Shown here one piece after another: positions 36,466-58,483 of a DNA stretch of 64,000 nt. Location of the stretch: the NCBI GenBank assembly GCA_003116975.1, contig BGKB01000062.1, positions 1 through 64,000 on the forward strand, read 5' to 3'. Positions within the stretch are counted from its first letter, which is position 1, and each line of letters starts with the position of its first letter. The notes under the pieces are model-generated. The model worked only from the letters and a program-made list of their open reading frames with translations. It made no database searches and was not told the DNA's origin. Both the position numbers and the translations under genes were made by a program. The stretch comes from Aurantiochytrium sp. KH105. Its lineage: Eukaryota; Sar; Bigyra; Thraustochytrida; Thraustochytriidae.

Positions 36466-39333
36466 ATGGAGCCGCTCGCTCTAAAGAGCAACGAAGGTCG
36501 CTGGCAAGAAGGCTTTGCCAAGACCGAGGCAGAGAGCTTGTGCTGGTTCGCCGGCAGCGACGAGACTTCACCCCAGGAAAAAGTCGCGCTCGGCCCGCGT
36601 GTCGTGGTGAAAAAGGTGCAATTTGGGCTGCGAAAGAACGTCTTTGAGCTCGATGCAGGTGATGGTTCACCCTTGCAATTCTCGGCAAAAAGTGAGGAAG
36701 CTCGCTCGTCATGGATCAAAATGATTTGCGAGGCTGCTGGCGTGGCCGCGCCGTCCGATCATGACAAGGAGAATCGAGGTCCCTCTCGGGGCGCGGGTGG
36801 GGCGGCTGGCCCAGGTCGCGTGTCGGGCCTGCAAAGCTTGCTGCAGGGCCTTCCCGGGGGTGCGTCTCTCGGTGGCGGCATGATGACGGAAGCACAGGCG
36901 CGAGAGCGACTTCAACAGAAACTTCAAGGAAAGGTGGAAATGCGGAATGTCAGCGAGGCAACCTGTCTTGTCTGCGAGAAACGGATGGATAGTAGCGATC
37001 AAGTTGAACTGCCCTCTGGCGCCAGTGTCCATACTGACTGCATGTACTGCTCGAAATGTGCATGTACTCTCTCCGCAGAGAGCGCCATCATTGATTCAAG
37101 TGCCGGTCTGCTCTTTTGCAAAGAGCACGACCCAGCCAAGCCAGCATCATCGCCCGCGTCCAAGCAAGGGATGACGAATGACGCTGTCATGTCCCGGCCT
37201 CGCGTCAACGCGCGCCGGCGTCGTCCAACAAAACCCCGTGCCAATCGCTCTTCAACCGCGGCTGCAGCAGCCACAAGTGCCTCTGCAGCCCCTGGCGAGG
37301 AGGAAGACTGTACAACGCGCGAGGACGATTTTGCTGACGACCAGCCGGCGCCAGGACCCATCGAAGAGTCCGCGATGGAGCCTACTGTCACGCATCCAAA
37401 CGCGTTTAGCATTGAGCTCGTCAAGAACCCCAAAGCAACCTCCAAAACGCAAAAGAAGGAGCTGCAGCAGCTGCACAAGAGCATCGTCGTGGCGTGTTGT
37501 GAGCAGGCTGCAGATAAGCGACAATGGATCAAGGCACTCGCGAACGCTCTCGAGCTTGTTCGTCTCAAAGATGTTCTTCGGGAGGCCCAGCGCGTGGACA
37601 TGTATGCCGCCATACAGGCCCAGATGGATATTGAGGCGTTTGAGCAGACACACAAGACAGAGCACGAGAGCATTGTCTTCCTTTGTCTGCAAAAGAAAGC
37701 AAGCAAGACCGGCAAGGCGAAAGCCAAGAAACTTGCTCCAGACGCTGCCAAGTGGACTCGCGCTACAGTCAAGCTTAGTGCCTCAGAGGGCCTCGTTGCT
37801 TATGCTAGTGCAGATACCTCTTCGAAGGTTCTCGCGCGTTTGAGTGACCTTGGCATGGGCATCTTTTGCGATGCCGCCACGGGCAAGCCCATCATGTTCG
37901 AACAGCCCGCGAAAGAGTCTACCTCTTCTTCTTCTCCTTCTTCTTCTTCTTCTTCTTCACCTTCGTCTGCAGCAGTATCCAAAGACGAGTGCAGACCGGC
38001 AGCGGCATTGTCAGAGTCCTCGTCTTCCTCGTCCAGCACTGCTGAAGAGGAAGACTTGCCAGTCCCTGCAAAAACATCATCTGTGGACCAAAATCGCACG
38101 GCGTCTGTGGATTCGTCACCCACGGCCTCGTATGAGAATGAGAACGTGAACGAGAACGAAGCAGCACACGAAGACTGGCAGCCGCCCGAGGATGATGAGA
38201 GCGATGATCTCCCGCCCCCGCTTGAGGTGAGCACTCTCCGGGCGGCCGTGCGCGAAGAAGATGCCGCGTCACGGAACGGCGAGCAGCTTCGCAGCGCCTC
38301 ATCAAAGAGCACCGCCCGCAAGCCTAAAACTCTCGGCGCCTCGTTCAAGCAGCGGGCCAAACGAGCAATCACAGCTTCATTTGGGCGTCGACGCTCGGCA
38401 TCGGCCTCGTCGCCCGCATCCTTGACCGCTTCCTCTCCGAGCGGGAAAAGTCGTCTTTTCAAGAGCAAGAGCAAATCCTCCTCGTCGCCATCACCATCGC
38501 CGTCACCTTCCCCACCATCGCCGCTTTCACAACGAGATGCAGAGCAGCAAGGGCAGCAGGGGCAGCAGCAGCAGCAACAACAACAACAACCACAAGAGTC
38601 TCCTGAGGTCGTGCAACTGCAGCCGCCGCCAACACGGCCGAGTCAGATGCCTTGCGCTCCGACCATTCCCGAGATGAACGAAGAGGACGAACATGATGAC
38701 GGCGAGGAGGAAGAGGAGCAGAAATGTGTTGACCAACACGGAGAACAAGGACGAACGAAAGAAACGCTTGCGTCTGAACGGGCTAGAAGTCCGAGCGGGC
38801 AACGTGCCGCAGAAGAGCTCGATGATTCTTTTCCATCGCAGCAGCAGACGCAGCTGCACGTGCAGGCTGAGCGGACGGACCCGTTCGAGACACAAGGTGC
38901 AAGTTTGAGTGAGCATAGCACATCTCAGTCCACACAAGCGTCTGTACAGAGCGAAACGCAGCCATCAGCAATGAGAGACGACATGGCGTCGTGTCCCGTT
39001 TTGGATGGGGACTTTGGAGCGGGTACAGCTGGCGTGGTGTTGCGACCAAGCTCGCGGCAACCGTCAGCATCTGACTATGGAAGCTTCCTAGGTGCCCCGC
39101 CAAACTCGTTCGAGTGCGTGAATTATGCAGCCGAGCGGAATGTAATGGACGATTCGCACAGTCATGAAAATCCACCTGCGGCGTGGCCTGGAACGCCGAC
39201 GCAGCATCAAGCCGAGAACAGCGAAAAGGAGCAAGACGCCGACAAAGACGACGCTGGCTCTGAAAGCGAGCGCACAGTTGGCTCCCGTTCGAGCGAATAC
39301 TGCGAGCAGGCAAGCAACTGTGCGATCCTCTGA
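36466..39333 (+). CDS. PH-LIM scaffold protein with C-terminal CaaX box
   Basis: Predicted membrane-associated signalling scaffold of 955 residues; start ATG at 36466 (GTGAAGATGG). An N-terminal PH domain spans about 10-90 (ending SSWIKMICEA). One LIM domain has all eight zinc ligands: C167, C170, H189, C192, C195, C198, C218, H221. A second PH-like segment follows (about 305-365, ending DKRQWIKALANALELV). The remaining ~500 residues are low-complexity Ser, Gln, Glu and Pro with a basic patch (KQRAKRAITASFGRRRSASA). The protein ends SNCAIL: C952-A-I-L is a CaaX box, and Leu at the last position favours geranylgeranylation in known systems. So PH binding and a lipid anchor could together hold it at a membrane. 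I do not recognise an established family with this order. Confidence 0.82.
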   Translation: MEPLALKSNEGRWQEGFAKTEAESLCWFAGSDETSPQEKVALGPRVVVKKVQFGLRKNVFELDAGDGSPLQFSAKSEEARSSWIKMICEAAGVAAPSDHDKENRGPSRGAGGAAGPGRVSGLQSLLQGLPGGASLGGGMMTEAQARERLQQKLQGKVEMRNVSEATCLVCEKRMDSSDQVELPSGASVHTDCMYCSKCACTLSAESAIIDSSAGLLFCKEHDPAKPASSPASKQGMTNDAVMSRPRVNARRRRPTKPRANRSSTAAAAATSASAAPGEEEDCTTREDDFADDQPAPGPIEESAMEPTVTHPNAFSIELVKNPKATSKTQKKELQQLHKSIVVACCEQAADKRQWIKALANALELVRLKDVLREAQRVDMYAAIQAQMDIEAFEQTHKTEHESIVFLCLQKKASKTGKAKAKKLAPDAAKWTRATVKLSASEGLVAYASADTSSKVLARLSDLGMGIFCDAATGKPIMFEQPAKESTSSSSPSSSSSSSPSSAAVSKDECRPAAALSESSSSSSSTAEEEDLPVPAKTSSVDQNRTASVDSSPTASYENENVNENEAAHEDWQPPEDDESDDLPPPLEVSTLRAAVREEDAASRNGEQLRSASSKSTARKPKTLGASFKQRAKRAITASFGRRRSASASSPASLTASSPSGKSRLFKSKSKSSSSPSPSPSPSPPSPLSQRDAEQQGQQGQQQQQQQQQPQESPEVVQLQPPPTRPSQMPCAPTIPEMNEEDEHDDGEEEEEQKCVDQHGEQGRTKETLASERARSPSGQRAAEELDDSFPSQQQTQLHVQAERTDPFETQGASLSEHSTSQSTQASVQSETQPSAMRDDMASCPVLDGDFGAGTAGVVLRPSSRQPSASDYGSFLGAPPNSFECVNYAAERNVMDDSHSHENPPAAWPGTPTQHQAENSEKEQDADKDDAGSESERTVGSRSSEYCEQASNCAIL

Positions 39334-46244: not shown

Positions 46245-47057
46245 ATGTCGCGGCGCGCGCTAGACGTGGACCAGCTGCAGGCGATCGTGAAGCGCGAGGG
46301 AAATGGAGCGTGCGTGGACTGCGGCGCGGAGAACCCGATGTGGGCGTCGGTAACGTATGGGACGTTACTCTGCCTGGAGGATGCCGGCAAACACCGCGCG
46401 CTCGGCGTGCAAGTGTCCTTTGTGCGGTCGTTGGACCTGGACGCGTGGAAGGACGTCGAGGTGGCAAGTATGATGGTGTCGTCGAATGCCTTTGTCAATG
46501 AGTTTTTTGCGCTGCATGGCGACGCGTCAGAAACGATCCCGCGATATCTGAGCTTGACCGCGGCCAAGTTGCGAAAGCTGCTCGCGCGGCGACGCGAAGC
46601 TTATTCGGAGTCGTCAACAGCGGCGATCACTGGTGCAGATGCGGAATCTGCGTCGCGGGACGACACGGCGAGTGCTTCCTCTTCCTCTGCCGCAACTGCT
46701 CAAGTCGAGGAGCTGAGTGCCGAGGAAACGATCGAGGTTCTCGATTTACAGGAGCGATTTGCGACGCGGGCGCTTGAGCGTGAGGCAAGCTCTAGGGACA
46801 CGGAGGAGCAGCGCCCTTGGGTACCTGACGAGCTCGCCCCGATCTGTATGCTTTGCGGGCGCACATTCACAATGATTTTGCGAAAGCATCATTGTCGCAA
46901 GTGCGGACGCGTGGTTTGTAAATCGTGCGCGCCAGCCAACAATAGCAAGCCCATCCCGCAGCTTGGATATCTTTCTCCCGTGCGTCATTGTCGAGCATGT
47001 TTCGAAAGCGCAGCTATTACGTGGCCGCGGCATGCCCCGGGTCCATCGCCAGCATAG
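46245..47057 (+). CDS. ArfGAP-FYVE fusion protein with altered ArfGAP zinc site
   Basis: A 270-residue protein joining an ArfGAP-like zinc finger (about 8-120) to a C-terminal FYVE finger (about 190-255). The ArfGAP part has C23xxC26, WASVTYGTLLC43, then LEDAGKHRALGVQVSFVRS: the expected fourth zinc Cys is Asp46, while the catalytic arginine (HR51) and LGVxxSFVRS are kept. The FYVE part has WVPD (192-195), RKHHCRKCG (213-221), all eight cysteines (C201, C204, C217, C220, C225, C228, C249, C252) and VRHC for the RVC motif, so PI3P binding on endosomes is likely. Start ATG at 46245, first in frame. GAP activity is uncertain because of Asp46; the protein could be an Arf effector or a structural variant. 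Confidence 0.87.
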   Translation: MSRRALDVDQLQAIVKREGNGACVDCGAENPMWASVTYGTLLCLEDAGKHRALGVQVSFVRSLDLDAWKDVEVASMMVSSNAFVNEFFALHGDASETIPRYLSLTAAKLRKLLARRREAYSESSTAAITGADAESASRDDTASASSSSAATAQVEELSAEETIEVLDLQERFATRALEREASSRDTEEQRPWVPDELAPICMLCGRTFTMILRKHHCRKCGRVVCKSCAPANNSKPIPQLGYLSPVRHCRACFESAAITWPRHAPGPSPA

Positions 47058-47444: not shown

Positions 47445-49401
47445 TCAAATCGGCGAGCAGAGCAGCTTGCGATCGCAGGCCGATAGCGCGACGCCAAAGG
47501 CTTGGAGCGGAGAGAGCGGCCAGGAAACATCGAGAGTGAAGAGCTCGGCCTCGGGGCTCTCGGCGACCTTGCCAAACTGCAAAGCGACGTCGGAGCTGCC
47601 GTTGACCATGAGCTGAAAGTTTTTGTTCGAAGGAAGCGTAACGCGGCCGCAGAAATCGAGTGAGAAGGCACTGATGGTGGGAAGCCAGTATGGCGTCTTG
47701 TTGGCGCCAAAGATGAGCTTTTGCTGGTGATGAGCCGGGGACATGGTGTTCTCGGCGGCGGCACGGCGCAGCGATGCGCTAAGGCGCTCGTCGTCATGGG
47801 TAGGGAGATGGACGCGAGTGTTCCAGTTCGGCCTCTGCTCGCGATTGCGCTTGCTGCGAGTGGAACGGGACGCGGAGGTTCGCCGCCGCCGCAGTGGCGA
47901 GGGCGGGAGGATGGGCGAAAGGAGAGGCATCTCATCTTCGCCAGCCACCACCGCGTGCACACCATCAAGGCCGGAATCGTCCTCGGGGCGGTTGCCGTGG
48001 CTGTTTTCGTTTTCCTCTTGTTGTTGTTGTTGTTCATCATCGTCATCATCATGGTCGTCGTCGTCATCATCATCATCTTCTTCATCTTCTTCATCGTTGT
48101 CGTCGTCGTTCTCGATGTCCATGTCCTCATCAACTTGCTTTTCGTCCTCGTCACTGATGTCATCGTTTTGCTGTCGTTGATCATGGTAATTGTTGTTGTG
48201 AAGGTTGTCATGGCGGGTAGCAGAGCCAGGCGCGTCAGCGTAAGCGTCAGCGTCGGTGCTGCGAACAGGTGATTGCTCCTTTGGGGAGGAGGAGCGCAGA
48301 GACCTTTCCGGGTGAGGAACGATGGCGTCGAGAGCGTTCTCCGCGTCTCGGTCGGCATCTTGATTGTTCCGGGAGCGCGACGCAAGAGCATCGCGCGAGC
48401 TTTGTGCACGCTCCAGGCTGGGAAAGCAAACATGGATGCGGCGCGGCCCCACGGCGCGGCCGAGCCTGTTTTGCGTGTAGCGCACAGCGCCAACCTCGAC
48501 CTGGTCGTCGGGACCGTAGATGGTGTGCTCAAGCCCGCGGAAGGAGCTGGCGACATGGCCCAAATAGGCATCCGAGCAACGGTCGAGCGTAGTTCCGAGC
48601 GGCGCCGAGACGTCCATGGAGATGTCGAGCTGTGCGGTAAGTTCGTCAAGGCTTGTGGGCCCGTGAGATTGTGCATCGCTGATGTCGTCAACCTCGGGCC
48701 GTTTGTGGGAGATGGCGAGGATTTGGTCGCCATATTTGGGTTCGTCCATGGAGGGCAGCGGACCCAGCGGGTAGCGCAGGGTTGTGGGCGCCTGCAAAAA
48801 GAGCTCGTAGCGTGTGGACGCTCCCTGTGCGCAGAATGCGCGAACGTAGCAGCGAACGACGCCGGCAGTTTGCGGTACGGGTGCAGTGAGAAAGGCCTTG
48901 CGTGCGTCGAGACTGTTGCGGAATCGATGCGAGCCGATTCTGTCTCGCGGGACGTAGGCGATCTCGCCAAGGCGTCCGCGACAGAGGGGGCACGAGCTGT
49001 GTTCGCGTCCGGATTTGCATTCCCTCCATTCGTAGATGCATTTTGCGTGCACGGGATGTTGGTTGCACTTGTTGGCGCAGGGAATGGGCGTGCGAGGGCG
49101 GCGCGCGGAGAATCCGTTCATGCAGATGAAGCAGTACTCGTCGGCATCGCTCATGACGGAGGCGGTGCTGCTTGTGATGGACCGTGTACCGTCAGACGAG
49201 CAGCTCCCGAGTCCAAGAAGGGGCGGGAGCGCCGGTGGCGGGACGGCGGTGTCGACGACGGAGCCCACGCGCTTGATCTTTTTGGCGCACGGCCTGCTGG
49301 TCGAGGTCGCCGACCGCCGCTGCTGTTGCTCTTGCCGTTGCTGTTGCTGTTGCAGCGGAGTCCTCTCATGGCGGTGATCGCTTCCGAGCGTCCGGTGAGC
49401 T

Positions 49402-49432
<31 letters not shown>

Positions 49433-49544
49433 GGTCCTCTTGGCGCTGCTCGAGGTCCTCCTCTTCGGGGCGCTCGAGCTCCTTGAGCGGCCGCACGTCG
49501 AGGCTCGACGTGCGCGCGCGCTTGAGTCTCGTCTGGCCCTCCAT
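47445..49544 (-). CDS. RING-Tubby protein 1
   Basis: A 699-residue protein combining a RING-type finger with a C-terminal Tubby domain. The RING is C138xxC141, C156xxxC160, H166xxC169, C185xxC188, a C4HC3 ligand order as in RING-variant (MARCH-like) fingers. The Tubby part (about 225-699) shows RYELFLQAP, YLGHVASSFRGLEHTIYG, VRYTQNRLGRAVGPRRIHV, NKTPYWLPTISAFSLDFCGRV, TLPSNKNFQL and the C-terminal DVSWPLSPLQAFGVALSACD, matching animal tubby step by step. A ~230-residue acidic and Asn/Gln-rich insert splits the domain before NKTPYW. The N-terminus is Gln-rich from CAG repeats. Tubby domains bind PI(4,5)P2; with a RING this suggests a membrane-recruited ubiquitin ligase (inference). The only in-frame ATG is at 49544; the open frame upstream starts at GTG. 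Confidence 0.88.
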
Positions 49545-50153
49545 CACGTCCCGCTCTGCCGCCTCCGCCTCGCCTCGCCCTCTCCTCGCTCGCAGGCCCG
49601 CGCAGACAGGGCTCTGTCGCCTCCGCTCCCGCTGCCGCGCGCCCGCGCTCCGCTGCTCCCGCGCCGCCGCGCGACCGACGTGACTCGGGTCTGCTCCGCC
49701 CTCCTCGCCGCCGCGGGGTGCGTGCCGCGCCTCCGCCTCTCCTCCTGCTGCCTCCGGCGCACGCTCCGCCCGCCGGCGCACTGTGCGCCCGCCCCGCACG
49801 GGCCGGCCGGAGGGAGGGAGGGAGGGAGGAGAGGGAGGAACTCGGAGAGGGCGGAGGCGGTAGAAGAGGCGAGCGAGCTAGCGGCGGCCGGGGCCCCGAG
49901 GAGACTCGGTGCGGGCGCGGCTGCGAGCGAGGCCTGCGGTGCGAGGCAGGCGGGCAGGCTCGGCGGGGAGGAGGTCCGAGGTCCGAGAAGGGTTGTTTGT
50001 TTGTTTGTTTGTTTGTCTGACTGACTTTGCTGGCACGGAGGCGGGATGGGATGGGAAGTGGCGAGACGCGACGCGAGGAGGGCGAGCGAGCGACGGTGCT
50101 CCGCGTCGGCGGGGACGACCGACTTTGATTTGTTTTGTCTTGTTTTGTCTTGT

Positions 50154-50176
50154 GTTGGCTTGGCTTGGCTTGGCTT
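50154..50176. repeat. (TTGGC)n pentamer tract
   Basis: About four TTGGC units, followed by looser TTTGGCTTG copies to 50200. Complement of the GCCAA tracts in uS17 intron 1 and at 63.8 kb. Confidence 0.7.
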
Positions 50177-50317
50177 CCTTTGGCTTGCTTTGGCTTGTCT
50201 TTGGTCTCGTCTGTCGCGTGGCTCTCTTGGGCCGGCTGGCGGGCTGGCTGGCTGGTCTGCTTTGCGGTTAGCTTTGCTTTGCTAGCTTCCGGGTTTCCTC
50301 GCCGGCCTGGGCTAGCT

Positions 50318-50388
50318 AGCTTGCTTGCTTTATTATACTTGCTTGCTTCCTTGCTTGTTTGGAGGAAAGCAAGCAAGCAAGCAAGCAA
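50318..50388. repeat. Inverted repeat of GCTT and AAGC units
   Basis: GCTTGCTT units at about 50329-50358 are followed, after GTTTGGAGG, by AAGC units at 50366-50388. The two arms can pair into a long imperfect hairpin. Confidence 0.65.
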
Positions 50389-50751
50389 AAAACAAGCGTG
50401 CGTGCGTTGCGTGCAGCAACAAGGAAACTTGGAAACTTTGCTTCGCGCCGCCTGGGGAGCGCAGGGACCCGCTGTGCGTGTCCGCCGCGTGGTCACGGGC
50501 GGCTAGCCAGGAATCGATTGATGCCTCGAAGGATGAACGATTGAATGAGTGAATGAACGATCGATCGAACGAACAAGCCAACGAGCCAACGATGCAAATG
50601 CTCGCTCGACGCGACTCGCGCGGGCGGCCTCCGACCCGGCCGCGCGCAAGATCGATCCGTCAATCAACCAATCAATCGATCGATCGATCGATCAATCAGC
50701 CTCGGGTCCGGCCAGAGGCGCTGCGGATGTACGCACTGCACGCACTCGGCC

Positions 50752-50784
50752 TCCTTCCTTCCTTCCTTCCTTCCTTCCTTCCTG
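50752..50784. repeat. (CCTT)n microsatellite
   Basis: Eight uninterrupted CCTT units, a pure pyrimidine tract. Confidence 0.85.
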
Positions 50785-51000
50785 TATAGGTGTTTTCGGC
50801 CGCCTCGGCGCCCTTCCCTTTCTGTGCACGCACCTCGCACCTCGCGACGCGGCTGCTGCGCTGCGACTCGCACGCTGCGACTCGCGCTCGAGCGGGGACG
50901 CGCTCGGAGCCCAGGCGCCGTGTCCGCCAGCAGCTGCAGCTGCAGCTGCTGCGCGAGCGCGGCGAGAGAAGAGGTCCCGGGACCCAGGACACAGGCAAGC

Positions 51001-51001
<1 letters not shown>

Positions 51002-51036
<35 letters not shown>
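51002..51036. repeat. (CTG)11 microsatellite
   Basis: Eleven CTG units outside any supported gene; the neighbouring RING-Tubby 1 gene has a similar tract in its coding sequence (poly-Gln, near 49402-49430). Confidence 0.85.
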
Positions 51037-51038
<2 letters not shown>

Positions 51039-51383
51039 CCGCTCTCTTCCCGCGCCCCCTGCCTGCCTGCTGCGGCGGTATGGGCTCGACAGCGCGAGCA
51101 CTTCGTCGGGTCGAGTCCGGCCCTGCGTCGCGTCTCGCCGCGGCGGCGCGTCGCTTCGCTCGAGCCCGAATGCCTCGCGGACGCACGCTGCTCCGCTGCG
51201 TCCACGCCCTGCAATCTCTCTCCTGTAGTATCTTCTCCGACAGCCAGGTCAACGAACTAACTGCGGCTGCACAACGACTTTCCAGCGCCGACGTGCGGCT
51301 CCGAGGTCCTCGCGCTCGCAGGTCGCCGCCGCTTGGGGCTTTGCTCTCCGCCGGACTGGACGCCCGAGCGGCGTCGCGCCAGC

Positions 51384-51456
51384 CGTGCGTGCGTGCGTGC
51401 GTGCGTGCGTGCGATGCGATCGCGGGGGCGGGAGGGAGGGAGGGAGGGAGGGAGGG
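51384..51456. repeat. (GTGC)n and (GGGA)n tracts
   Basis: A GTGC tract (about 51384-51412) and a GGGA tract (about 51430-51456), 18 bp apart. Confidence 0.8.
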
Positions 51457-52334
51457 CCTCCTTCCAGGCCTCTGCCGCCTTGATTCCAGTCTCGGATCAA
51501 TCGCAGTCAACTCTGATCAGCCAGATGGATGATCGATCGATCGATCGATCGAGCGATGATGATTTCTGCGAGGATGGGTACGACGACGGTGCGCTCGCTC
51601 GTCACGCGCTGCGGCTGCACGGCCTGCGCTGCGCTGCGCCGCGACGAGGCCTCGCAGGCGGGGCAGAAGAGCAGCGCCGGTGACGGTATGAACGAAAGAA
51701 TGAGTGAATGTAGGTCAGTGATGCACACGCAGCACGCGACCGCGGCGTGCCGCTAGGAACTGGAACTCGGCGAGATTAGTTAGTCAATCTTTCACAGCCA
51801 GGTGTTGGACGCACGCCTGCGCAGCGAAGCTAGCTCCTGGACTGTGACGAGGACTCGACGTGGACGTGGACGACTGGGAGCAGCAGCAGAGACAGTGCTG
51901 TGGACACGCCCGCCTCCAGACAGATAGATTGACAGATAGATGGCAGCTGCCACTGGCAGGGGCAGCCAGCCACCGCTGGACGTCCCTGCACGCAGCACAG
52001 CAGCTTCTCACTATTCCTGCCGTGCTTGACCTGAGCACTGCACGCTCCACTTTCGGAATGCAGCTGCAGATTGGACGAGGCGCACGGGTCCGCTCGTCTA
52101 GTGCTGCACTCTTATATTTAGCGCAGGACAGGACAGGACAGCGAAGCGATGAGAGCACGGGCCCGACGGTAGCAGCTCCAAACAGCGTGACGGCTGCACT
52201 GCGGCCAATGGACTCTGTCCTCGTCTGCGCGTCGCGGGGTCAAGATCAAGATGGCTTTGCGTTCAGGGCTTGACTGGTTGCAGCAGTGCAGCAGCCCAGC
52301 CACAGGTTGTAGTAGCAGTAGATTGACGCCTGCC

Positions 52335-52363
52335 TGCAGCAGCAGCTGCAGCTGCAGCTGCAG
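52335..52363. repeat. (CAGCTG)n palindromic tract
   Basis: CAGCAGCTGCAGCTGCAGCT-type repeat, self-complementary, in the RING-Tubby interval; similar CAGCTG clusters recur at 50930-50950 and 61310-61335. Confidence 0.7.
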
Positions 52364-54412
52364 GCACAACTGCAGTAAGGCGGGATCCACGTGCAAATTC
52401 CGAGTCTCGCGCCCGGCAGTGGCGGCTGGATTTGGTTGGTCGTCTGGACACACAGGCAGACAAACAAACGACAGCCACAGCCAGCTCGCTGCAAAAAAAG
52501 CTTCCGCTCCCGTTCGTGGTCTGACGAACCGCGCGGCAGCCCGCTGCCGGGCCACGCAGATGCTCGCAGTCGCGCCCGGGACCGCCCCTGCTGCCCAGCC
52601 CCGCCCCGCCAAGGGGGTCCGCGAAGAGGGGGTGTGCACCGCCCCCTCGTCCCAGTCCCCGTGCTTCCCAGTATCATTCATTGCCCTCACAGTCAGCATC
52701 GCCATGGGGGTGTGTACCTTGCGTCCCGATCGTCCCCGTCGGAGGGGAGCGAGTCCCCGAAGACCGTGCGCCCGACCGCAACTGCAAGTCCCGGGCCCCG
52801 TGCGCATGCTCGTGATCCTCGTCGCCGTGCGGCCGCTCGCCGTTTTCTCGGAGTTGCCCTGCCCGGCACAGGGATGCGATGCGGCTGCAGCGTCCGTCCA
52901 TTGCCAGCAGCAGCAGCAGACGGATAGACGCAGATGCTCTCACGCTCGACTTGAACGAAGCTCGCAGTCGCGTGCGTTCCGAGGACCGAGACGGCCGCAG
53001 CAGCAGCTGCTGCGTGCCGCATTGGACAGTGGCCGTGTCTCTCCTGCGAGAAGCCTTTGAGTTCGGCTCTGTGCTGCGTGGTGGCGGTCGCGGACCGGTC
53101 TCGGCGCGGGGCTCGGGACTTGGGACGCGGAACCTCACGTGGGGTGCGTGCAAGCCCCAACCGCCTGCCGCGCCGACATCCGCACCGCCACACATGATGC
53201 AGCCTACTTATTTACCTACGGAGAGGGAAGGAGACCGCCGATTCTCCTCGGTCTGGTGTGTGTTGCCGTCGAAGGAAGAACGTCCGTCCGTCATCGTGCT
53301 GGTCGGCGACGGCTGTGGCGATGTGGCTCGGACCTCGGAAGCTGCAGAAGCAGCGTGACTGTGACCGTGACGGCCGCAGTCGCAGTCGCAGCGCCGAGGC
53401 GGTACGCACGACCTCGCTGAAGCAGAGCTTGCGAGGCTTGCGAACTTGCGATCCATACATCGATGTATGTATATGTAGAGCTGGCTGTGGCTGGTGCATG
53501 TGAGGCTGACCTTGAGATTTGCATCTGAAGTTCAGATACTTGTACATGTGCATGTGCATGCTCTTGCTCCGTGCGAGAGTTGATCTCAAATCTCTTGCTG
53601 GACGGTTTATAGTCTATTTTGAACCGCATTAAATCTCTTCCACCGCCCGTCGTTGCGCCGACTCTGTCCTTGACCCACTAATTTGATGAAGGTGATCGTG
53701 GTTTCTGCGATATCTATCACCTTGCTGACCTAACCAACACGAACGAGCCTGAACCTTGGAGGAGAATTTATCTTGAGCCAAACGGATGACATCTGGCTGC
53801 TGCAGCTGCTGCTATTGCGACTGTCTGTCTGTCTTATCGCTTGCGTTTTTCTTTCCAAAGTGTTTCTTGGGGTCGCGTTTGCTCTGTTTTGCGTTGGTTT
53901 GGAAGGGACAATACGGGGGGTTCATATTCTTTTTTCTTCTTACAGATGGTGCTTTTCAGGTTCTTTTCACGGAAAGCTGAGTGTGGCTTGAGCCTTAAAG
54001 AAAGGAGGGTTGAATCTTCGTTTATCTTGGACGTCTCACTGGAGGAGAGACGCAAATGAGGATTGTTGACCCACCTCTTGCTCTCACCTTTGTAAGACTT
54101 TGGGGCAAGCAAAAGTCGTGCTGTGTTCAGTCTTGAGGCGAGACAGAAGTCGTCGATTGACACACCATAAGTTGCTCCCACCATATCGAAAAGTTTCGGA
54201 GCAAACCAAAACGGTCGGCCTAAAACTCGTTTTCGCCAACTGCTCGCAAGACTCCGAAGGCAAGCGGGACGTCTCATTGGAGACCTCTCCACATGACCAA
54301 GTGATGAGGCAAAAGACGGCGCTTGAGGCAAGCAAACGATGAACACATGCTCGTTACAAGACCGAAACATCCGGGCCGACGAAGATCATAAATCGACAAT
54401 AAAGTATGGAAC

Positions 54413-54841
54413 ATGCTTCTCCGACGGTGCGGACAAGAGCAAAGATGTCCATCGATAAACCGTTACTCCTTGCATGTGCTGCTATACTCCGTCAAGACCA
54501 TGCAGCGCAAACAAGTGCTAGATGCCCCCAAAAGAAGCGAAACAGATGAAGCATCTACATTTATGCTCTTTGGCACACCGTTCTCTGCCGCTGCAGATGA
54601 TGCCCCAGGGCGCTCGCGCATGCTTTGGTCTGGCGGTTGGAATTGCAATCACGCATGCTCTGCCTCTGGCTGCTAGCATCGAAGCCAAGGCGACCCCGTG
54701 TGGCCAGCGTTTTGCCAACATCCTTTTTGGCCGATGCACACTCTGTCGCAACCAGGCCCTCTCATCCCACCCCGTTTCCTGGGCCAAGCCCTCAAGCAAC
54801 AGATCCGACCTGGACGTCGCCGCGTCCACCGAGAGCCGGTA
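54413..54841 (+). other. Weak candidate small coding exon(s)
   Basis: Within the less GC-rich patch, two + frames look faintly coding. One (ending 54676) has MQRKQVLDAPKRSETDEAST. The other, from an ATG near 54600, reads as a hydrophobic leader (ACFGLAVGIAITHALPLAAS) followed by a Cys-containing stretch, stopping at 54839-54841, with mostly G/C third positions. Neither has a known domain; transcript data would be needed. Listed so that it is not lost. Confidence 0.15.
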
Positions 54842-55567
54842 GTTTTGCGCTCGCGCGATTGCTAGTACTACGTGGCCACACATTGGTCCACACACGCATC
54901 CTGAGACTACAAGCTGACGACAGCTTCTTCTGCGCGTCCATCCATGGCCAGCAGCGGCAGCCAGCACGAAAGCTCTCCCGAGCCTGGCCAAAAGTCCTCG
55001 CTCGCTTACGCACGCAAACGCAGACGCAAGCCCGGACGCGTGCAATTCTCTCTCTTCTTGTCCTCCTGTTCTCCTCGATGTTCTCCCACCAAGTCAAGTC
55101 AAGTCCTTCTTCACCCTGCCTGCCGCTCTCAGCCGGCCGGCGCAAGTCGCAGCATCGAGCCCGGCGCACCCTCGACCTTCACCCCGACTCTCTGCGGCTG
55201 GCCGCTTCCGCCGCATACCGCCGCGCACCCCGCCTCGCTCGCGCCGCATACCGCCGCGCGCATCCCCGCGCGACGGCGAGGCGCGGGCGCGAGGGCGCCG
55301 GCGTCGCGCCGGCAGAGCGGCAACGAGGGCGGGCTCGCGCGAACTCGCCTCGGGCTCGGAAAGGCGGGAGCGAGGAGAAGGAGGACAACCCAGATTCACT
55401 GCCCCTGGGTCCGGTCTCGCGTCGATCTCCCCGGGTCCGGTGCGCGCGTCGGCCCCTCTGACGCGCGCATTGCGTCCAGTGCGCGCCGCGGCGGGGGCGC
55501 GGGTGGCGCGGCGCGAGCCGAAGCCGGTGCGAGCCCACTTTCCCGTGCACGGCGCACGGGCCCGCCG

Positions 55568-55767
55568 GCGCAAGTGGAGAAAGCCGCGGCTGCGCAAGTG
55601 GGTTATCGCGCGCGCAAGTCAGCTATCCCGTTCTCCGCGCAGTGCCTGCAGCGGCCGGCCGGCCGGCCGGCCGGCGCACCGCGGCCGCGCTTCAGCGCCC
55701 TTTCCGCGGCCTTTTGTTCCACTTGCCGGCCGCCGCCAGACACGGCTATAGCCCCGTGCGCAAGTGG
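55568..55767 (+). promoter_or_regulatory. GCGCAAGTG motif cluster upstream of RING-Tubby 2
   Basis: GCGCAAGTGG at 55568, 55592 and 55758, and GCGCAAGTCA at 55612. The first and last share the longer word GCGCAAGTGGAGA, and both are followed within 12 bp by CCGCGG. Confidence 0.45.
55653..55675. repeat. (CCGG)n tract
   Basis: Five to six CCGG units between the GCGCAAGTG motifs upstream of RING-Tubby 2. Confidence 0.8.
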
Positions 55768-56317
55768 AGACCGCGGCACGGCGCCAAGAACAAGAAGGAG
55801 GAGAGCGGGAAAGAGAAAAAAGGAAAAAAAAGGGGGAAAAGTGGGCAGACTTCGATTGATCGATCGACGGTCGATCGATCGTTCGCATCGCCGCCGCGCG
55901 CCGCGCAGACCGAGACAGCGCCGCGCCCTTTCCGCGCCCCCGCTCGCCCCCTCCCCCCCCTCCCGCGGCCCCTCGCGCGCAGGCAGGCAGGCAGGAGCGC
56001 GCGCGCGAGAGAGCGCCGGCAGGCAGGAGGCGGACGTGGAAGGGATTCGGATTTCAAGACGCGCGAGCCGCGCTCGAATCGCCATCGCCTAGCACGCACG
56101 CACGCGCACGGCACGCTCGCGCGCACGCGCCCGGCCGCGCCAAAGCCTCAGCGCGCCGACCGCCAGGCACGCACGCACGCGCGCGCGCACGCACGCGGAG
56201 CCCGCCGAGCCCGCCCGCGCCGCAGCGGAGCAGCAGACAGGCAGTCGTTGCGAGGGAGGGCTCGGAGTCGGCCGTCGATTCGAATCGAATCGATCTTCGG
56301 GAGCCCGGCGCGCCACC

Positions 56318-58483
56318 ATGCTCGTCGCGAACTCCGCGGCCAACGGCCCCAGCCCCGCCGGCAACGCCAATGTCCCCGAGCCCAGGCAGCGCGGCGCCTC
56401 CGCGGGCGCCCGCCCCCCCGCGCTGTCGAGGCAGCGCGCCCGTGCCAGCAGCGGCGACATGGAGAACCAGCCGAGGGCCGCCAACTCGCTGCTGCTGCTG
56501 CCCAACAGGACGCGGAGCTCGGCCATCGCCGGCAAGCCGCCCCTCGGGCCCTCTAACCCGGCCACCGTCGCGCGCGCGGGCACGCACGGGGGCAACGCCT
56601 CCTCCTCGTCCTCCACGGCTCCAGGCGCGGCCGGCGGCGCTGCTGCCGCCGCGCGCGTCGTGAAGCGCGCGAGGAGCCTCAGCCTGCCTCTCGACTGGGA
56701 GGAAAGAGAGCGCCTGCAGCAGCAGTCTCGCGCCGTGGCCACGAGCGCCGCGGCCGCGCTGCCGTTTACGCAAAATACGTCGCTGCATGCCGACCCGGCC
56801 CACCTCGCGTCCTCCTCTCCTCCTTCGTCTCCTTTGTCTAATTCCACAACATCCTCCACTTCTGTGCCATACCAGACTGGGGCCTCGCGTCTCCCTTTGT
56901 CGGGATCGATGCGGGAGTCACTCCTTGTCGCCTCGACGGCTGTGGCTGCAGTCCCAAAGACGACCTCGCCTTCCTCATGCTGCGGTCCTTTGGGAACCGC
57001 TCCTGCTTGCGCAGCTGACGCCGCATCAGGGGCGACACCTTCCGGTGGATCACTGCACGTCTGCGCCGACAACGCCGACGAGGCACGAACCGCAAGTCTT
57101 GCCCAGGACCCAGCCCGCGAGGCCGGGGATCCTCAACCCTGTATTATTTGCTACGGCGGGTTCTCAGCCAAACGACCCCCCGTTCGAATTCCCTGCGAGT
57201 CGAACTGCAACGATGCACCCGTGCATGCCAAGTGCATCTTTGAGTGGAAGGAAACAAAACGCCCCTTTACGCTATCGCCCTCTTCGTGCCCTCTGTGTCG
57301 CGGTGCGCTTTCAGAAATGGACTACACGCCACCAGATCCGCTCCACACTGCATCACTGGTTCGGTTCTCATATCGCAAGTCCTTCGTGTCTCGTCCTGTG
57401 CCGCGGACTGCGGGTATGGTGCGCTGCTACATTCGCGCCGTGCGGGAAGACACTGTTCTCTTTGGGAAATCGATACGATACGAAATGTACCTGCAGGCAC
57501 CTCCCAAGGTGCGATACCCGCACGGAGACCTTCCGACCTCGTCCTCCCCCGTCGTGGGCGACGTTCTCTTGATGGTGGCGCGGAAGAGGTCGCTCAAGCA
57601 AGGGTCCTGCTTTAACTCAATTGTAGACATGAGCCTCGATCAGGCGGGCGAAGATTTTGATCGCAAGGGCGCCAATTTTGTCGGTTGCGTCAAGTCATCC
57701 TTTAGTGGTCTCGAGCATACGGTGCTCGCGCCCTTTTCCACGCAGCCATCGACCGCCTCGAGCGAGTCTCACCGCTCCCAGCGGCAACATCGCTCCGGCG
57801 CGCCTGGCTTCCTCGAGCTCGGCTCGGTGCGCTACACGCAGAACCGTATTGGACGAAGTGTGGGTCCGCGCCGCATGCAAGTCTGCGTGCCAATGGTTGG
57901 CGCGGCGGCTGCCTCGTCCATGGACGACGTCATGGACGAACACCTCGATATTGCGGAGGAGACTGCCGCAGCCAAGGCTGCTGCTGCCGACCACGAGCTT
58001 CCGCCTCTCATATCCTCGTCGTTTGCAAACATGAATGTTCTCGAAGAAGACGACGACGATGATGACGAAGAGGAGGAGGAGCGACCTTGGGCCACGAACG
58101 TGTACAGACCCGTCAAGTCGGCGGACACCATGCGTCAGACGCTCCGTCGCGGTCAGACGGGCGTCGTCAACTCGGACGCACTGTTGTTTGGCTCCAACAA
58201 ACAGCCGTACTGGCTCGACTCGATCCAGGCGTATTCGCTTGATTTTGCGGGTCGTGTGACGCTGCCATCAAACAAAAACTTCCAGCTCTGTCTTCAAGGT
58301 GAGCCTTCGCCGGGGACGACGATTCCTGAGCCCGATGGCTCCAATGAGATCACGCTTCAGTTTGGCAAGGTTCACGAAGGAGCTGTAGAGGTGTACACGC
58401 TCGATTTGCAGTGGCCTCTCTCTCCTGTGCAGGCCTTTGGCATTTGTCTCACGGCAAGCATTCAGAAGATTTGCTGCGCCTGA
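56318..58483 (+). CDS. RING-Tubby protein 2
   Basis: Paralogue of the gene at 47445-49544, 721 residues, start in a perfect context (CGCCACCATGC). After ~270 Ser/Ala-rich residues, a RING with the same spacing: C275xxC278, C293xxxC297, H303xxC306, C324xxC327. Shared text around it is GFSAKRP, VHAKCIFEW and SSCPLCRG. The Tubby domain (about 362-721) has RYEMYLQAPPKVRYPHGDLP, VGCVKSSFSGLEHTVLA, VRYTQNRIGRSVGPRRMQV, NKQPYWLDSIQAYSLDFAGRV, TLPSNKNFQL and LQWPLSPVQAFGICLTAS. The acidic insert is shorter (~100 residues) than in copy 1, and the N-terminus is unrelated, with no poly-Gln. Conserved RING and Tubby parts with free N-termini suggest both domains are under selection. Function as in copy 1 is inference. 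Confidence 0.89.
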   Translation: MLVANSAANGPSPAGNANVPEPRQRGASAGARPPALSRQRARASSGDMENQPRAANSLLLLPNRTRSSAIAGKPPLGPSNPATVARAGTHGGNASSSSSTAPGAAGGAAAAARVVKRARSLSLPLDWEERERLQQQSRAVATSAAAALPFTQNTSLHADPAHLASSSPPSSPLSNSTTSSTSVPYQTGASRLPLSGSMRESLLVASTAVAAVPKTTSPSSCCGPLGTAPACAADAASGATPSGGSLHVCADNADEARTASLAQDPAREAGDPQPCIICYGGFSAKRPPVRIPCESNCNDAPVHAKCIFEWKETKRPFTLSPSSCPLCRGALSEMDYTPPDPLHTASLVRFSYRKSFVSRPVPRTAGMVRCYIRAVREDTVLFGKSIRYEMYLQAPPKVRYPHGDLPTSSSPVVGDVLLMVARKRSLKQGSCFNSIVDMSLDQAGEDFDRKGANFVGCVKSSFSGLEHTVLAPFSTQPSTASSESHRSQRQHRSGAPGFLELGSVRYTQNRIGRSVGPRRMQVCVPMVGAAAASSMDDVMDEHLDIAEETAAAKAAAADHELPPLISSSFANMNVLEEDDDDDDEEEEERPWATNVYRPVKSADTMRQTLRRGQTGVVNSDALLFGSNKQPYWLDSIQAYSLDFAGRVTLPSNKNFQLCLQGEPSPGTTIPEPDGSNEITLQFGKVHEGAVEVYTLDLQWPLSPVQAFGICLTASIQKICCA

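Follow-up and report, generated by a model that had tools for sequence, protein, structure and literature searches.

Tubby domains serve as PI(4,5)P2 sensors and as ciliary adaptors, and in some lineages they have also been tied to the ubiquitin system: plant Tubby-like proteins join the Tubby domain to an F-box, while TULP4 has a SOCS box. On the side of the finger, the closest described systems are the C4HC3 or H2-type RING E3 ligases such as RNF38, FANCL, DOA10 and listerin, none of which is known to have a Tubby domain. Here we present four genes of the thraustochytrid Aurantiochytrium sp. KH105 whose products carry a RING-type finger and a Tubby domain in the same chain. With TUB, TULP1 and TULP3 (PF01167) these proteins share a Tubby domain that is alike by sequence and by model, but ahead of the RCY/RCF motif, at a distance of 41-42 residues, they add a RING; they also replace the K330/R332 pair, and three of them (A, B and D) carry an acidic insert. 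Like the plant F-box proteins and TULP4, they join Tubby to a module of the ubiquitin system, but with the RING on the same polypeptide they would not require SKP1 or elongin as a scaffold. With RNF38, FANCL, DOA10 and listerin they have in common the zinc-binding pattern and a CPLCR-like end. No RING-Tubby protein was named among the matches listed in our literature search, from whose scope subscription papers and preprints mostly fell away.

Two RING-Tubby genes in the window

The window, by which we mean the whole stretch of 64,000 nucleotides that was analysed, contains two of the four genes. Gene A lies on the reverse strand (47445..49544) and encodes 699 amino acids, and gene B lies on the forward strand (56318..58483) and encodes 721, both coordinates including the stop codon and both genes being a single unbroken frame. 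In each the frame stays open upstream of the chosen ATG, and the start is uncertain. A second copy of the region, collinear and about 86-90% identical, is found on contig C52, where the alleles of A and B are 710 and 720 amino acids long. The original prediction that each protein holds a RING and a Tubby domain in one chain was borne out, in that a C4HC3 RING is followed, after 41-42 residues, by the Tub domain.

We do not claim a bidirectional promoter common to A and B because 6773 bp (49545-56317) separate them. This 6.8 kb contains two further frames, 54944-56092 and 52251-53060, both without a match in a Pfam scan at E up to 0.01. Adjoining gene A is a forward frame of 270 amino acids (46245-47057) with an ArfGAP domain and a FYVE finger, and another forward frame (36466-39333) encodes 955 amino acids that include a PH domain, along with a LIM match below threshold.

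The Tubby domain of A spans about residues 225-699 (47448..48872, reverse strand; boundaries approximate), and that of B, covering Pfam Tub positions 2-252, lies at 57389..58453 on the forward strand, both being placed by Pfam and by the structure model. As had been anticipated, the Pfam Tub profile (PF01167, cut-off 27 bits) finds the domain in A (100.8 bits) and B (143.8 bits), and it does so as well in C (139.8) and D (106.9), all above the cut-off. In the predicted models, comparison with Foldseek recovers the Tubby beta-barrel with its central helix for the Tub halves; the structure prediction that had been proposed as a check thus speaks for the Tubby fold and not for the RING, which has low confidence in both models. 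No RING entry stood among the listed Foldseek and VIA matches, which carries no weight for a finger modelled at such low confidence. The Tubby domain of A is interrupted ahead of its C-terminal half by a long, low-complexity insert rich in D, E and Q, with acidic runs at residues 484-504 (48033..48095, reverse strand); the corresponding acidic run of B is at residues 576-588 (58043..58081, forward strand), and an acidic insert is also present in D. All four proteins share a stretch near QAP...YP.G.LP that is inserted within Tub and is found neither in human TUB nor in the canonical Tubby of the genome, and all four have LPSNKNF at the site of ASVKNF of TUB.

A four-gene family and its history

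The genome searched comprises 76.03 Mb in 367 contigs, is high in GC and has long unbroken frames. It contains 29 Tub places, which by reading amount to approximately 15 distinct genes, and since these places are mostly paired the assembly looks like two haplotypes. When the RING pattern was sought in the 27 fetched Tub stretches and in the two window genes, it was present in six of the former and both of the latter, that is, in 8 of 29 Tub places. These eight represent four genes with two copies each, distributed over six contigs: besides A and B there are, outside the window, gene C (L018 on C113 and L021 on C104, haplotype copies) and gene D (L022 on C115 and L023 on C106, likewise haplotype copies). 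In a genome search with the RING and linker of B, the 12 places listed comprise the eight RING-Tub places, strongly matched, and four others, weakly matched from E 4.7e-4 on. Pfam scans of the approximately 15 Tub genes, each represented by one copy, found neither an F-box nor a SOCS box; for the F-box there was no match in A or B at E up to 1, and none in C or D at E up to 0.05.

A fusion that is known here from genomic DNA alone, in a protein with a low-complexity insert such as that of A, might conceivably be an artefact of annotation or assembly, in which two separate genes have been joined by mistake or an intron left in place passes for the insert. We consider this extremely improbable, for each of the four genes reads as one unbroken frame in either haplotype, so that the same arrangement recurs in eight of eight copies spread over six contigs, and the last RING cysteine always stands 41-42 residues from the RCY/RCF motif of Tub. 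The alleles, moreover, have kept their frames open, and synonymous sites show the greater divergence between them.

Among the four proteins, identity is 44-59% in the RING and linker, 39-47% in Tub and 11-25% in the N-termini, the last probably being alignment noise. The otherwise dissimilar N-termini of A (residues 8-15) and B (residues 116-123) do have in common a basic stretch followed by serines, KRAR[TS]xSL. In a tree of the 15 Tub domains of the genome together with human TUB, the four RING-Tub proteins form a single branch (support 100/99), within which A falls with B (85/73). Mapped on this tree, the RING-Tub state takes 1 change, and none of 500 shuffles gave a value as low. Between A and B the synonymous sites are saturated (dS 2.2), and therefore the duplication is old. 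Between alleles, synonymous change in the RING-Tub core exceeds amino-acid change, with dN/dS of 0.214 in A, 0.076 in B, 0.037 in C and 0.130 in D; in the N-terminal parts the ratios are 0.373, 0.525, 0.286 and 0.115, respectively, few changes being counted in either case.

The simplest history would be that a C4HC3 RING fused once to a divergent Tubby paralogue and that the fusion gene was then duplicated, probably in a labyrinthulomycete (thraustochytrid) lineage. Scans with an alignment of eight RING-Tub rows gave 63 pattern matches in viral contigs and 50 in prokaryote genomes, of which tblastn confirmed 0; being confined to viral and prokaryotic sequences, these scans are uninformative on spread among stramenopiles.

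Several other Tub proteins of the genome are worth recording in their own right. L013 and L014 (allele L015) combine Tub with GYF domains and, at the N-terminus, with an SH3 domain, as scanned in L013 and L014, which is an unusual combination for a Tubby protein. The Tub protein of L019 and L020 has an N-terminal part that is BTB/BACK-like by eye; for L019 this candidate found no support in Pfam or PDB matches and was set aside. The Tub protein of L016 and L017 has a weak zinc-ribbon match and, by eye, a PDZ-like stretch. Elsewhere in the genome, frames resembling PUFA synthase lie on C72, C155, C290 and C61; on C72, and again on C155, two of them form a divergent pair. Such frames on two contigs match the omega_3_PfaA model at E 1.4e-278 and 1.8e-278 (930 bits), the cut-off of 1010 being reached by no single frame, and in 11 of 14 control genomes the same model also finds matches below its cut-off. 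PUFA synthases of such a size are typical of thraustochytrids, and these frames, taken with the GC content and the long unbroken frames, point towards that group and fit a stramenopile source.

The finger as a putative E3 RING

The finger of A was located by its ligand pattern at residues 138-188 (48981..49133, reverse strand), with ligands read as C138, C141, C156, C160, H166, C169, C185 and C188, an additional histidine at H163, and R189 directly after the last cysteine. That of B, located by ligand pattern and Pfam, covers residues 275-327 (57140..57298, forward strand), with C275, C278, C293, C297, H303, C306, C324 and C327, and then R328. The C4HC3 pattern is present in all eight RING-Tub copies, the eight putative zinc ligands are invariant across the four genes, and in 20000 shuffles each of A and B not one showed a RING ligand pattern. 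Also invariant in the four fingers are the Ile between the first two cysteines, a Trp, the Pro of CPLC and the Arg after the last cysteine, which we take to be the E2-contact and linchpin positions by which E3s engage E2 and ubiquitin.

Profile scores for the finger are marginal. Against Pfam zf-RING_2 (PF13639, cut-off 27.3 bits) the whole proteins score 21.0 (A), 23.1 (B), 23.8 (C) and, by allele, 26.5 and 27.9 (D), so that the expected RING was found by HMM in A and B, with whole-protein scores below the cut-off; B cut to its RING domain rises above it, to 29.3 bits. A six-frame RING search of the genome, in which 150 of 201 candidates were scored, places B, C and D above the same cut-off, and gene A is absent from that list. 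For RINGv / RING-CH (PF12906, cut-off 21.6) the whole B protein scores 15.3 and the cut-out domain 21.6, at the cut-off itself; the spacing in the RING-Tub proteins is C-x3-C-x5-H, as against C-x-C-x7-H in RINGv. All four cut-out fingers match both zf-RING_2 (best 3e-8) and RINGv in Pfam. Two of the four also match the Rad50 zinc hook (Rad50_zn_hook, best 3.4e-6), and two match PHD_NSD (best 0.0035).

Some C4HC3 fingers, PHD among them, are not ligases, and this pattern, together with the marginal RING scores and the PHD_NSD and Rad50_zn_hook matches, would suit a finger that is structural or mediates protein-protein contact without ligase activity, in a protein acting as an adaptor or as a Tubby-type transcription regulator. 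What makes us regard this as quite improbable is the invariance of the Ile, Trp, Pro and post-cysteine Arg in all four proteins, and the company that the finger keeps among known structures. At E up to 1, a profile of the four RINGs has 39 PDB matches. Most of these, the best three among them, are E3 RINGs, including RNF38 (1.6e-4), APC11 (7.1e-4), MEKK1 (0.0044), FANCL (0.013) and DOA10 (0.089); matches of other kinds include a crustacean hormone (0.64) and, twice, ZBTB20 (0.004 and 0.029). With the zinc ligands, the putative E2-contact positions and the post-cysteine Arg invariant in four of four, these sequences would best be read as encoding active RING E3s.

The PI(4,5)P2 pocket and substrate docking

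The original prediction had envisaged the proteins as ligases recruited by PI(4,5)P2; in such a scheme Tubby would bind the plasma membrane through its classic pocket and the RING would modify membrane proteins there. In mouse tubby, the change R332H lowers the affinity for PI(4,5)P2 and KR330/332AA lowers it further, and a second site is placed at residues 301-305 (PMC10445746). Conservation of K330 and R332 is described for animal proteins and for a fair number from plants (PMC6366083). In an alignment to human TUB (chain 1s31), with residue numbers following mouse tubby, the site of the tubby motif GKLRSN (K330, R332) is occupied in A by GHVASS (48543..48560, reverse strand), giving H and A, and in B by GCVKSS (57683..57700, forward strand), giving C and K; C has H/H and D has S/N. 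Both residues are thus kept in none of the four. In L011, which is the canonical Tubby of this genome, the two positions read K/R, and no other of the 15 Tub genes keeps both, although L031 has K/K. At the second site, K302 and R303 are present in all four RING-Tub proteins and R301 in B and C, with 304 and 305 altered in all four; N310 is N in C alone, in an alignment that is there gapped in B and uncertain.

An intact Tubby fold, the retained K302 and R303, R301 in B and C, and the lysine at 332 in B would each favour lipid recruitment of this type; yet none of the four keeps K330 and R332 together, residues 304 and 305 are changed in all four, and mouse substitutions at 330 and 332 cost affinity (PMC10445746). 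We regard a PI(4,5)P2-recruited E3 as doubtful. Canonical recruitment by this lipid appears unlikely for the RING-Tub proteins because K330/R332 have been replaced and such changes lower affinity in the mouse, B with its lysine at 332 being the least clear case. Of the broader idea of a ubiquitin-ligase-like use of Tubby, then, the single RING-Tub chain and the E3 positions stand, with ligase activity inferred from them, and the PI(4,5)P2 step finds no support.

The account that we favour, and which we think probable, is that the four genes are a RING-Tubby family descended from one fusion and encode single-chain RING E3s that dock by means of Tubby. Each protein would most likely be a single-chain RING E3 ubiquitin ligase, whose RING would bind E2~ubiquitin, while the Tubby domain, kept at a constant 41-42 residues away, would dock on either the substrate or the compartment in which it resides. 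Given the replaced residues in the canonical pocket, such docking is probably something other than classic high-affinity PI(4,5)P2 sensing; a protein ligand, or a weak contact with acidic lipid through the remaining KR pair, would be the more likely target. Rather more tentatively, the four genes may constitute a previously undescribed family of single-chain E3s, belonging to one protist lineage, in which a Tubby domain without the PI(4,5)P2 pocket docks the substrate. A direct RING-Tubby fusion would connect Tubby with ubiquitin by an independent route, and the four paralogues, with their altered pocket, would offer a natural set for learning what a Tubby domain binds in place of PI(4,5)P2.
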